A stretch of 64,000 nucleotides of DNA, from positions 1,488,001-1,552,000 of the forward strand of contig NZ_CP062946.1 in assembly GCF_014898095.1 (NCBI RefSeq), given 5' to 3'. This document shows positions 32,610 through 35,284 of the stretch, piece after piece. Numbering within the stretch: the first letter of the stretch is position 1; each line of letters starts with the position of its first letter. The DNA comes from Thalassotalea sp. LPB0316. GTDB lineage: Bacteria; Pseudomonadota; Gammaproteobacteria; Enterobacterales; Alteromonadaceae. The notes under the pieces were generated by a model. It searched no databases and was not told where the DNA came from. It saw only the letters and a list, made by a program, of their open reading frames with translations. A program made the translations under genes and the position numbers.

Positions 32610-32783
32610 ATGAAAAGACAGAAGAGAGATCGTTTAGATAGAGCGTTTTCAAATGGTTACCAAGCGGGTATTTCTGGTCGCAGCCGCGACAATTGCCCTT
32701 ATCAAAATACCGATGCCAAATCAGAATGGCTAGGAGGTTGGCGAGAAGCCATCCAAGACAGACACATGGGTCTCTTTAGATAA
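32610..32783 (+). CDS. rmf: ribosome modulation factor
   Basis: A 57-codon frame encodes M-K-R-Q-K-R-D-R-L-D-R-A-F, then G-Y-Q-A-G-I-S-G-R-S, C-P-Y-Q and W-L-G-G-W-R-E-A. These match ribosome modulation factor almost position by position over its length. RMF binds 70S ribosomes in stationary phase and, with HPF, makes inactive 100S dimers. AGAGG lies upstream of the ATG. A strong terminator follows. It is a single-gene unit. Confidence 0.97.
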   Translation: MKRQKRDRLDRAFSNGYQAGISGRSRDNCPYQNTDAKSEWLGGWREAIQDRHMGLFR

Positions 32784-32974: not shown

Positions 32975-35284
32975 ATGCTTGCTTTACGTGATATTCAACC
33001 TCAAAAAAATGAAGTCTATTTAGACAACAATGCAACCACGCCGGTACTTCCCCAAGCTATTGAAGCTTCTACTCATACGATGCAGTTGTGTTATGGCAAC
33101 CCAAGTAGTAGCCATATAACCGGCATTAAAGCGAAATATATTCTAGAAACTACCCGTGATTTAACGCGTCAAGTTATCGGTGCTAAAACTGGCCAAGTGA
33201 TGTTCACAAGTGGTGCTACTGAAGGTATTCAAACGGCGATTATCTCATCGTTAATTGCTGCGAAGCATCAACAAAAATCGATTGAAAACCCTGTCCTATT
33301 GTACGGTGCAACCGAGCATAAAGCCGTTCCTGAATCATTAAAACACTGGAACAAAATGCTTGATATTGGCGCGCAAGTACTCGCTATTCCGGTAGATGAG
33401 CGCGGCATTTTAGATATGACGTTTATTGCTGAACACGTACCTAATGCACTGATGATCTGTACGATGATCGCCAATAATGAAACCGGTGTTTACCAAGATT
33501 TAGCCTTATTAGAGCAAACCATTCGTCAACACAACAGTGATGTTTATTGGATGGTTGATTGTGTTCAGGCACTCGGCAAGATCCAGTTATCGATTTCTGA
33601 CACTAGCATTGATTACGCGCCATTTAGTGGTCATAAATTATATGCGCCTAAAGGTATTGGGATTTTGTACGTGCGAGAAAGTGCACCTTTTACACCATTT
33701 ATTGCTGGTGGTGGTCAAGAAAGTGGCTTGCGCTCGGGAACGGAAAATCTGCCGGGGATCGCTGCATTACAAGCCGTATTAGCACTACTTAACGACGAGC
33801 AAGACGATACCTTTAAAAGTCACGAGCAACTAGAGAAATATCGCGAACAACTGGTTCAAACCTTAACCAAGGCATTTCCGGCGATTGTTTTTAACCATGA
33901 CTTTACTTGTTCATTACCGACGACAATTAACTTTTCGGTTAAAGGCTTAAGCAGCAAAGATATTATGGATTTATTCGATGCGGCTCATATTCGCGTCAGT
34001 GCCGGTTCGGCCTGCTCGTCAAAAGTTACAGGTAGTTTTGTGCTTGACGCCATGGGCAAGCCAAAATGGCAAAGTAATAGTGCCATTCGCATGTCGTTCG
34101 GCCCAGCGACTAGCCAGCAAGAAATCGATGATGCCTGCCATGCAATTGAACAGGCAGTAAAAGCACTTAAAAGCAGTTGTTTGATCCTCTCTGATACCGC
34201 AGATAATAGTGCTATTGGGGTAGATGGTTTGCAGCAGTGGTTATATGACAACGGTTGTACTTGGTGTTATGTCGACAAAGCCACTAAACAATGTTTTGTG
34301 ATCGATTTAGCACCTGAGCTAGTGGCTAAGTTTGAAACCTTAGTTGAATGTCAAGGCTATGAAGTTGTCGCGGTGTTAACAACACATATTCACCAAGCCA
34401 ATGAAGCTCATCAAAATATGATCCAAACACTATGGCAAAACGATAGCTCTAGTTATGATGTGCTTGGTTGGCCACAAAATACTCGCTTAGTTTCGCTAGA
34501 AAATGAGTTAGCCGTTGAAGCAATAACGATTGGTAATAAAGTGATAGCGCGTTTACCTTTGCCTGGCCACACCGAAAATAGTGTCGCTTATTTGCTTGGT
34601 CGCGCGGATAATCAGCAACTTAAAGCGGTCGATATTGAGTTCGTGTTTGTCGGAGACCTAATACAAATTAACGGCTTGGGTCGCTGCGATGTTCAAGATG
34701 GCGACGCGAGTTCGTTGTATCGTTCATTGCAACTGCTTAATCAAGTCATCACCGAACAAACATTGCTTTGTCCGGCACACGATTATCTTCAGTTGTTTAA
34801 CACGACGCTAGCACTTGAGATGCAGAGCCAGCCGATGTTAAAACAAATCATTGATGGGGAAATAAGCGAGCAGGCATTTATCGAATACAAGAACAAAGCG
34901 GATGAACAGTTGCCGCCTGCAGATTATCATCAGTACTGTGGTCCTGTTGGCTCGTTTAATAACATCATTGAAACGGTTCATCCGAATCAATTAGTTAAAT
35001 TTATTAGTGACTCACCAAATACTGTAGTCGTTGACGTGCGAGAGCCTCACGAATATGATGCCTATCCAGATTCGACCATCGGTGGCAAAACTATGGTCAA
35101 TATTCCATTGTCTCAGATCACGCAATTTGTCCAACGCAATAAATCTGGCCAAGCTGATAATCGATACGTGTGTATTTGTCGAAGCGGTAAACGCAGTGAA
35201 GCAGCAGCAAAAACGCTGCAGCGCAATAACTTTACTCACATTTATCACGTGCCTGGAGGCTTTGCCTTACTCAATAAAAGTTAA
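32975..35284 (+). CDS. cysteine desulfurase-metallo-beta-lactamase-rhodanese fusion
   Basis: The 769-residue protein has three domains. Residues about 10-395 are a NifS/IscS-like cysteine desulfurase: Y-L-D-N-N-A-T-T-P, PLP lysine K221 in S-G-H-K, catalytic C347 in G-S-A-C-S-S. Residues about 415-640 resemble a persulfide-dioxygenase-like metallo-beta-lactamase fold: H471-x-H473, H532 in P-G-H-T, D561 in V-G-D, H602 in P-A-H-D. The usual D-H after H-x-H is replaced by A475-N476. Residues about 665-769 are a rhodanese with active C735 in C-R-S-G-K-R-S. Likely it makes, oxidises or transfers persulfide sulfur. It stands alone, after the rmf terminator. The domain order is unusual; the combined reaction is inferred. 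Confidence 0.88.
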   Translation: MLALRDIQPQKNEVYLDNNATTPVLPQAIEASTHTMQLCYGNPSSSHITGIKAKYILETTRDLTRQVIGAKTGQVMFTSGATEGIQTAIISSLIAAKHQQKSIENPVLLYGATEHKAVPESLKHWNKMLDIGAQVLAIPVDERGILDMTFIAEHVPNALMICTMIANNETGVYQDLALLEQTIRQHNSDVYWMVDCVQALGKIQLSISDTSIDYAPFSGHKLYAPKGIGILYVRESAPFTPFIAGGGQESGLRSGTENLPGIAALQAVLALLNDEQDDTFKSHEQLEKYREQLVQTLTKAFPAIVFNHDFTCSLPTTINFSVKGLSSKDIMDLFDAAHIRVSAGSACSSKVTGSFVLDAMGKPKWQSNSAIRMSFGPATSQQEIDDACHAIEQAVKALKSSCLILSDTADNSAIGVDGLQQWLYDNGCTWCYVDKATKQCFVIDLAPELVAKFETLVECQGYEVVAVLTTHIHQANEAHQNMIQTLWQNDSSSYDVLGWPQNTRLVSLENELAVEAITIGNKVIARLPLPGHTENSVAYLLGRADNQQLKAVDIEFVFVGDLIQINGLGRCDVQDGDASSLYRSLQLLNQVITEQTLLCPAHDYLQLFNTTLALEMQSQPMLKQIIDGEISEQAFIEYKNKADEQLPPADYHQYCGPVGSFNNIIETVHPNQLVKFISDSPNTVVVDVREPHEYDAYPDSTIGGKTMVNIPLSQITQFVQRNKSGQADNRYVCICRSGKRSEAAAKTLQRNNFTHIYHVPGGFALLNKS

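Follow-up and report, generated by a model that had tools for sequence, protein, structure and literature searches.

A three-domain desulfurase, persulfide dioxygenase-type and rhodanese family without a description found, and its diverged member in Thalassotalea sp. LPB0316

The gene at positions 32975 to 35284 of the window (the 64,000-nucleotide stretch of the Thalassotalea sp. LPB0316 genome that was analysed) encodes one chain in which a cysteine desulfurase, a metallo-beta-lactamase (MBL) domain of the persulfide dioxygenase (PDO) type and a rhodanese follow one another. This chain belongs, as a diverged member, to a three-domain sulfur family of which we found no description: the open-access literature searched yielded no paper on a three-domain protein and no assay of one. 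We read the family as a cysteine-catabolising sulfur relay that ancestrally led from cysteine through persulfide to sulfite and that in the window's protein probably leads to persulfide or sulfide only, and we give this reading a probability of about 0.58. Judged by its residues in 113 family rows, the PDO site has been lost several times, while the catalytic residues of the desulfurase and the rhodanese never vary.

Domain architecture and spread of the family

The features of the gene are listed below, with positions in the window.

32975 to 35284, + strand: whole gene, 769 amino acids, desulfurase, PDO-type MBL and rhodanese in this order
33014 to 34174, + strand: group I cysteine desulfurase domain, residues 14 to 400 (Pfam PF00266, E 4e-60; closest PDB sequence 1ecx)
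33635 to 33637, + strand: K221, PLP lysine (SGHKL), in 113/113 family rows
34013 to 34015, + strand: C347, persulfide cysteine (GSACSS), in 113/113 family rows
34178 to 34180, + strand: C402, conserved cysteine at the desulfurase/MBL junction, in 84/84 iron-triad rows and 114/114 Planctomycetota/Verrucomicrobiota-type rows
34220 to 34894, + strand: PDO-type MBL domain, residues about 416 to 640, from sequence and fold matches
34385 to 34402, + strand: H-I-H-Q-A-N (residues 471 to 476), a degenerate HxHxDH motif; H471 (predicted iron ligand) and H473 are present, with Ala/Asn in place of D475/H476
34568 to 34570, + strand: H532, predicted iron ligand, in 33/34 rows of the window's clade
34655 to 34657, + strand: D561, predicted iron ligand, in 34/34 rows of the window's clade
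34682 to 34690, + strand: R570-C571-D572, putative equivalent of R139/D141 of the Acidithiobacillus caldus PDO (AcPDO), substrate pocket (role from PMC6060420); R570 and D572 in 34/34 rows
34778 to 34786, + strand: H602-D603-Y604, putative equivalent of AcPDO H171 and Y173; H602 and Y604 in 34/34 rows
34937 to 34939, + strand: C655, probably corresponding to the cysteine conserved in type I PDOs (AcPDO C224, hETHE1 C247)
34967 to 35269, + strand: rhodanese domain, residues about 665 to 765 (PF00581, E 1e-10; fold matches over residues about 255 to 360 of the C-terminal model)
35177 to 35179, + strand: C735, rhodanese cysteine (CRSGKRS), in 113/113 family rows

An earlier note, made from the letters alone, had seen three domains in one chain with intact desulfurase and rhodanese sites, and both observations stood. 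The two Pfam matches identified the outer domains, and K221, C347, C735, R736 and R740 were invariant in all 113 non-redundant rows (123 minus 10 rows at 95% identity or more). A Foldseek search with the whole-chain model returned only desulfurases and selenocysteine lyases among the 50 matches listed, and the C-terminal half was therefore modelled separately for fold comparison. The fold match of this model, together with a sequence match to the PDO-rhodanese fusion BpPRF, bore out the proposal that the middle domain is an MBL. Of the two cysteines that accompany it, C402 remains in 13 of the 22 rows of the 113-row set in which the MBL is eroded. C655 was assigned by aligning the C-G of a relative (L024) with that of BpPRF, and it lies 53 residues from H602 here, as C224 does from H171; it is present in all 84 iron-triad rows and missing in 27 of the 29 rows of the same set that lack the triad.

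Searching proteins with the C-terminal half yielded 55 matches, 51 of them with both desulfurase and rhodanese domains, which rules out chance or a frame artefact as the origin of the fusion. Named organisms among the matches were Thalassotalea, Colwellia, Thalassomonas, Shewanella and Rheinheimera. A sampling scan of genome contigs found at least 56 family loci among the 80 kept, in Pseudoalteromonas, Shewanella, Rheinheimera, Alkalimonas, Idiomarina, many Burkholderiales, two Verrucomicrobia MAGs and one Oligoflexia MAG; three Pseudoalteromonas secondary replicons carry the gene. Searching from a Verrucomicrobia protein gave 239 matches, and 114 of the 120 listed were at least 690 amino acids long; those listed with organism names were Planctomycetota or Verrucomicrobiota. 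The note had called for a count of this domain order across genomes. Within the window's order the gene was found in 41 of 394 genomes, in frames of 747 to 806 amino acids, one with an internal stop, and in all 198 rows with three domains and the iron triad, from Planctomycetota, Verrucomicrobiota and Proteobacteria, were examined (84 + 114). In an even draw of 369 genomes from the class, 160 matched the C-terminal profile, and among the matches listed only the window's own genome held the fusion; the other listed frames reached at most 627 amino acids, and none of them spanned both domains with room for a desulfurase. For each genome the draw scored no more than five candidates, and a form lacking the MBL would escape it. 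Left out of the alignments were three of the 55 proteins with other architectures (P0052, P0054 and P0055), the partial protein P0035, the partial locus L061, 14 of the 29 loci L089 to L117 with the match on the minus strand, and the six Planctomycetota/Verrucomicrobiota-type proteins under 690 amino acids; 15 of the remaining 114 entered the second tree described below. The three-domain architecture is thus a real family, patchily spread and with at least about 200 members. To call it unusual requires a qualification, given this size and the published work on a two-domain relative (PMC8931425).

Database names for family members include "aminotransferase class V-fold PLP-dependent enzyme" and "cysteine desulfurase". 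The window's protein reached no NCBIfam cut-off among the 25 of 36 matches listed, IscS, NifS, SufS and CsdA included; its NifS score was 283.7 against a cut-off of 530.75 and its IscS score 215.5 against 643.2. The genome has an isc locus, in which iscR, iscS, iscU, hscB, hscA and fdx were identified, and no isc protein occurred among the ten neighbours of the fusion gene that were scanned. It also encodes a 560-amino-acid SufS-family desulfurase fused to a CsdE/SufE-like domain (L125, 5508 to 7190; contig C1 at about 1806508), the second fused desulfurase of this genome, and a separate Blh-like MBL protein of 287 amino acids that scores below the Blh cut-off. Since these genes are present, the cell need not rely on the fusion for cluster assembly or for persulfide oxidation, and the suggestion that it is no housekeeping cluster enzyme was upheld.

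The same evidence bears on whether the fusion is instead a dedicated biosynthetic sulfur donor, for tRNA thiolation, molybdenum cofactor or cluster repair. Relays from a desulfurase to a rhodanese feed pathways of this kind in other systems (PMC8931425). In Pseudoalteromonas THAF3 (L007) the second gene upstream of the fusion belongs to the TusA family, and small genes that resemble it occur in five related loci. However, the protein falls below the NCBIfam cut-offs given above, an IscS with its isc genes and a SufS-family desulfurase are already present, the distribution is sporadic in the order (41/394), and a donor would have little use for a fused sulfur-oxidising domain. We therefore consider a biosynthetic role improbable and keep to a catabolic relay.

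The dioxygenase site and its repeated loss

In AcPDO the iron ligands are H57, H113 and D130, and D61 and H62 are not ligands and instead form an ionic pair tied to H171 (PMC6060420). According to the same source, the D61A and H62A variants showed no activity above detection and D141A kept 1.5%. By alignment, the window's protein has equivalents of H57, H59, H113, D130, R139, D141, H171, Y173 and probably C224, and carries Ala-Asn at the D61-H62 positions. The note's observation that A475-N476 replaces the D-H of the motif was thus correct, and a sequencing error at this point was ruled out, since an intact Asp-His pair is also absent from the 33 other rows of the clade. Its assignment of H471, H532 and D561 as equivalents of the ETHE1-type iron ligands likewise agrees with the alignment, in which they are kept in 33 to 34 of the 34 clade rows. 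Not supported for the window's protein was the idea that the loss of D-H takes away no more than site-2 ligands, with a functional iron dioxygenase remaining. Because alanine at either position of the pair abolishes AcPDO activity, a working dioxygenase is doubtful in the window's branch, and the step is probably absent or much weakened there.

The conservation pattern nevertheless speaks partly for a domain that is still an iron persulfide dioxygenase. The predicted triad, H473, R570, D572, H602 and Y604 are kept in 33 to 34 of 34 clade rows and C655 in 33 of 34, which is more than would be expected of a useless domain. Position 476 is not random (Gln in 29, Asn in 3 and His in none of the 34 rows), and type III PDOs also have another residue in place of the third His (PMC6060420). 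Position 475, however, is unconstrained, with eight residues across the 34 rows and Asp in one. The clade has also changed at 445, 452, 469, 478 and 480, with drift at 445, 469, 478 and 480 again counting against activity, and most other positions conserved in 158 intact rows are unchanged. With the AcPDO variants inactive, we think it unlikely that the window's MBL works as a dioxygenase, and we retain the reading in which this step has largely or wholly gone.

Across the 113 rows, 44 have the triad and the Asp-His pair, 40 the triad without the pair, 22 have lost the ligands and 7 the whole MBL. Two of the 44 lack Y604 (L020 and L062). In 21 of the 44, mostly of the Shewanella/Pseudoalteromonas type, Asn replaces D572; since AcPDO D141A kept 1.5% activity, these rows may be weak dioxygenases. 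Such rows, for example L009, L011, L038 and L117, present a second, different pocket change. The whole site (H471, H473, D475, H476, H532, D561, R570, D572, H602 and Y604) is found in 113 of the 114 Planctomycetota/Verrucomicrobiota-type rows, and the remaining row has Glu for Asp475. The note's idea of persulfide oxidation within one chain finds support in relatives with the triad and Asp-His (44/113) or the whole site (113/114), and is not supported for the window's protein, which lacks Asp-His.

In trees built by a quick method from the desulfurase domain alone, the family forms one group on a long stem, apart from 11 other desulfurases, and each of its deep branches contains intact rows. 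On the first tree 13 changes are needed to explain the four MBL states, and the second gives a similar picture. We infer from this, by parsimony, an ancestral form with three domains, since the outgroup lacks an MBL domain. A gain of the MBL domain is less likely than its loss: rows with two domains fall within branches of three-domain ones. The Asp-His pair would seem to have been lost separately in the window's clade (34 rows) and in a Pseudoalteromonas lipolytica type (7 rows), which stand apart on the second tree and at an open fork on the first. Its replacement also differs: x-Gln with R570 kept in the Thalassotalea type, and Asp/Glu-Arg/Lys with R570 lost in the P. lipolytica type. Burkholderiales include forms with the MBL eroded or deleted.

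These losses raise the alternative that the window's branch has an MBL in decay, retained only as a spacer or as a scaffold for dimers and moving towards the ligand-less Burkholderiales form. Many Burkholderiales rows and an Idiomarina row have lost the ligands and keep a shortened domain, and seven rows have no domain left. P0020, from the same clade as the window's protein, lacks H471, H473, H532 and C655 all at once, with D561, R570 and H602 remaining, and so pictures a further stage of site loss. The MBL also diverges faster than the desulfurase, at a distance ratio of 2.67 in the window's clade against 1.61 to 2.37 in three intact clades and 3.14 in a ligand-less clade. This excess over the intact clades is modest, however, and there is none in the P. 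lipolytica-type clade (2.34), which lacks Asp-His too. All three ligands are kept in 33 of 34 rows and the pocket residues in 34 of 34, so that the pattern suggests more order than simple decay, and we regard a mere remnant as rather doubtful. As dS was saturated for four pairs with the window's gene, no dN/dS is given for them. What the window's branch probably carries is a predicted, remodelled metal site.

Gene neighbourhood and proposed function

The window's gene lies between rmf upstream and a malic enzyme gene downstream. The 57-amino-acid rmf (ribosome modulation factor; 32610 to 32783, + strand; Pfam E 1e-22), shorter than the usual ORF length limit, is its nearest upstream neighbour, on the same strand and 191 bp away. 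Among the loci of 35 relatives searched, only the nearest (L146) has rmf, and a malic-enzyme-like start was seen by eye downstream in L008 and L146. No RNA element was found in the window at gathering score. A promoter scan around the gene gave 7 promoter-like sites against 8.0 in shuffles and no terminator-like site.

In Burkholderiales the neighbourhood is more telling. A DecR-like Lrp-type regulator lies upstream on the opposite strand, divergently, in 27 of 32 Burkholderiales-type loci. These 32 include L052, which the tree places with Burkholderiales although its record is titled Pantoea, and L054, whose title gives no more than Betaproteobacteria. In 26 of the 27 it is 91 to 182 bp from the conserved YLD codons of the fusion, and in one it is 3.7 kb away. 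These regulators are 44 to 52% identical to E. coli DecR versus 35 to 39% to Lrp. By coordinates, the linked regulator was the best DecR match of the genome in all ten genomes tested of the 27, with second-best single-stretch matches at 34 to 39%; the margin is smaller in five of the ten, where another gene matches in two pieces (53 to 55% and 41 to 43%). The pairing occurs with intact, eroded and deleted PDO domains alike. A recurring 8-mer in the intergenic region, GAAATCTA, was considered as a shared operator and rejected: it coincides with the coding start of the fusion (M-E-I-Y-L-D), and we therefore claim no operator motif.

Gammaproteobacterial neighbours are lineage-specific and say little on function. 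In a survey of 47 loci, three of them not gammaproteobacterial, the fusion was found in 45, and no operon partner common to several gammaproteobacterial genera appeared among the 28 gene clusters listed. In seven loci, L007 (4466 to 5792) and P. lipolytica-type ones, an AI-2E-type transporter gene is directly upstream; the TusA-family gene precedes it in L007, and a similar small gene does so in five others. In six Rheinheimera/Alkalimonas-type loci (L014, L020, L021, L022, L023 and L145) the fusion is convergent to a ChrR-type cupin and sigma factor pair, and five of the six have FadR upstream. A UPF0176/TrhO-type rhodanese gene of Paucibacter (L046, 12034 to 12888) overlaps the 3' end of the fusion by 4 bp. 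Genes for a TauE/SafE-family permease (Pfam: sulfite exporter) adjoin the fusion in two unrelated lineages, L006 (4846 to 5748) with L010 of the same species group, and L024 (12455 to 13276). The three-domain members beside them keep the triad and Asp-His, which would fit a sulfite product; with these the only cases among 58 loci searched, they are too few, and we claim no sulfite-exporter partnership.

A two-domain enzyme supplies the biochemistry. Pseudorhodoferax CD-Rhd (WP_056898193.1) is reported to desulfurate L-cysteine with DTT, GSH or mercaptoethanol as acceptors, at a KM of 273 to 476 uM and a kcat of 6 to 8 per s, and its authors call it the most efficient desulfurase characterised so far (PMC8931425). 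The 54-kDa enzyme, with catalytic C334 and C466, passes sulfur to its own rhodanese and then to thiols (PMC8931425, PMC12319549). A two-domain Variovorax member of the family (L057) has 501 amino acids and cysteines at the same positions, C334 and C466; from this match in size and position, CD-Rhd appears to be a two-domain member of the three-domain family. The main text of PMC8931425 contains no mention of "dioxygenase" or "lactamase".

By analogy, we infer the reactions of every three-domain member, the window's protein included, as follows. The desulfurase would convert L-cysteine to alanine and a persulfide on C347, from which sulfur would move to C735 of the rhodanese and on to glutathione or another thiol, as a persulfide or, once reduced, as H2S. 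Ancestrally, oxidation of the low-molecular persulfide by the fused type I PDO would follow, so that cysteine sulfur would exit as sulfite instead of sulfide. The branch of the window's protein, with relatives in Thalassotalea, Colwellia and Thalassomonas, no longer has Asp-His, and this last step is probably absent or much weakened there. The physiological role may be relief of excess cysteine, which is toxic. Bacterial routes of cysteine disposal are known to release the sulfur as sulfide; if the proposal is true, persulfide made and burnt to sulfite within one chain, without release, would be another such route.

We favour cysteine-induced breakdown of cysteine on account of the DecR pairing and the activity of CD-Rhd; in E. 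coli DecR (CyuR), itself activated by cysteine, switches on cysteine degradation (PMC9040844). No DecR-like gene adjoins the window's copy and the best DecR match of its genome is only 32% identical, so that cysteine control is here carried over from Burkholderiales. A combined reading is more tentative and considerably in doubt. In it the intact family would be a one-chain cysteine-to-sulfite pathway of desulfurase, rhodanese relay and iron dioxygenase that cysteine switches on, by way of the DecR-type regulator at loci with such a linked gene. The window's branch would at the same time re-use the site, which would not have decayed, with triad, pocket and C655 kept and the D-H loop rebuilt around Gln/Asn, to bind sulfane sulfur for sensing or a different reaction, gating sulfur release by the desulfurase. 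The intact members and the repeated loss are of more interest than the copy in the window by itself. An otherwise constant enzyme from which one catalytic domain was lost several times offers a natural series on the purpose of the dioxygenase, including a step at which the metal ligands are kept and the catalytic Asp-His is gone. The one-chain route can be tested at once, as the two-domain relative is already a working laboratory enzyme.

Relation to known systems

The two-domain CD-Rhd, basis of the cysteine biosensor CyReB (PMC12319549), shares with the window's protein the outer domains, their order and both catalytic cysteines, and equivalents of the active-site residues K221, C347 and C735 are common to CD-Rhd fusions and the window's protein. 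In the latter the MBL lies between desulfurase and rhodanese, whereas in CD-Rhd the two are joined directly. The C-terminal half runs from PDO to rhodanese as in BpPRF, other PDO-rhodanese fusions and Blh, a group that gave its best sequence match and was among its best fold matches; BpPRF has no desulfurase and an intact D-H motif, and the window's protein is the opposite on both points.

With type I PDOs (ETHE1, MxPDO and AcPDO) the MBL domain shares the fold, the predicted two-His-one-Asp triad, R-x-D, H-x-Y and probably the C-terminal Cys. It differs in reading H-I-H-Q-A-N instead of T-H-x-H-A-D-H, with Asp-His replaced, and in being fused between two sulfur-handling domains. The group I desulfurases NifS, IscS and DndA have the PLP lysine, the SGSAC persulfide loop and the fold in common with the window's protein, but the fusion family forms its own clade on a long stem (11 outgroup rows) and scores below the equivalog cut-offs. 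The pairing of a DecR-like activator with a cysteine-degrading enzyme, known from E. coli CyuPA and DecR (CyuR), is matched in Burkholderiales. Unlike the desulfidase CyuPA, the fusion enzyme is a predicted desulfurase, yielding alanine and sulfane sulfur, and its copy in the window stands without an adjoining DecR-like gene.
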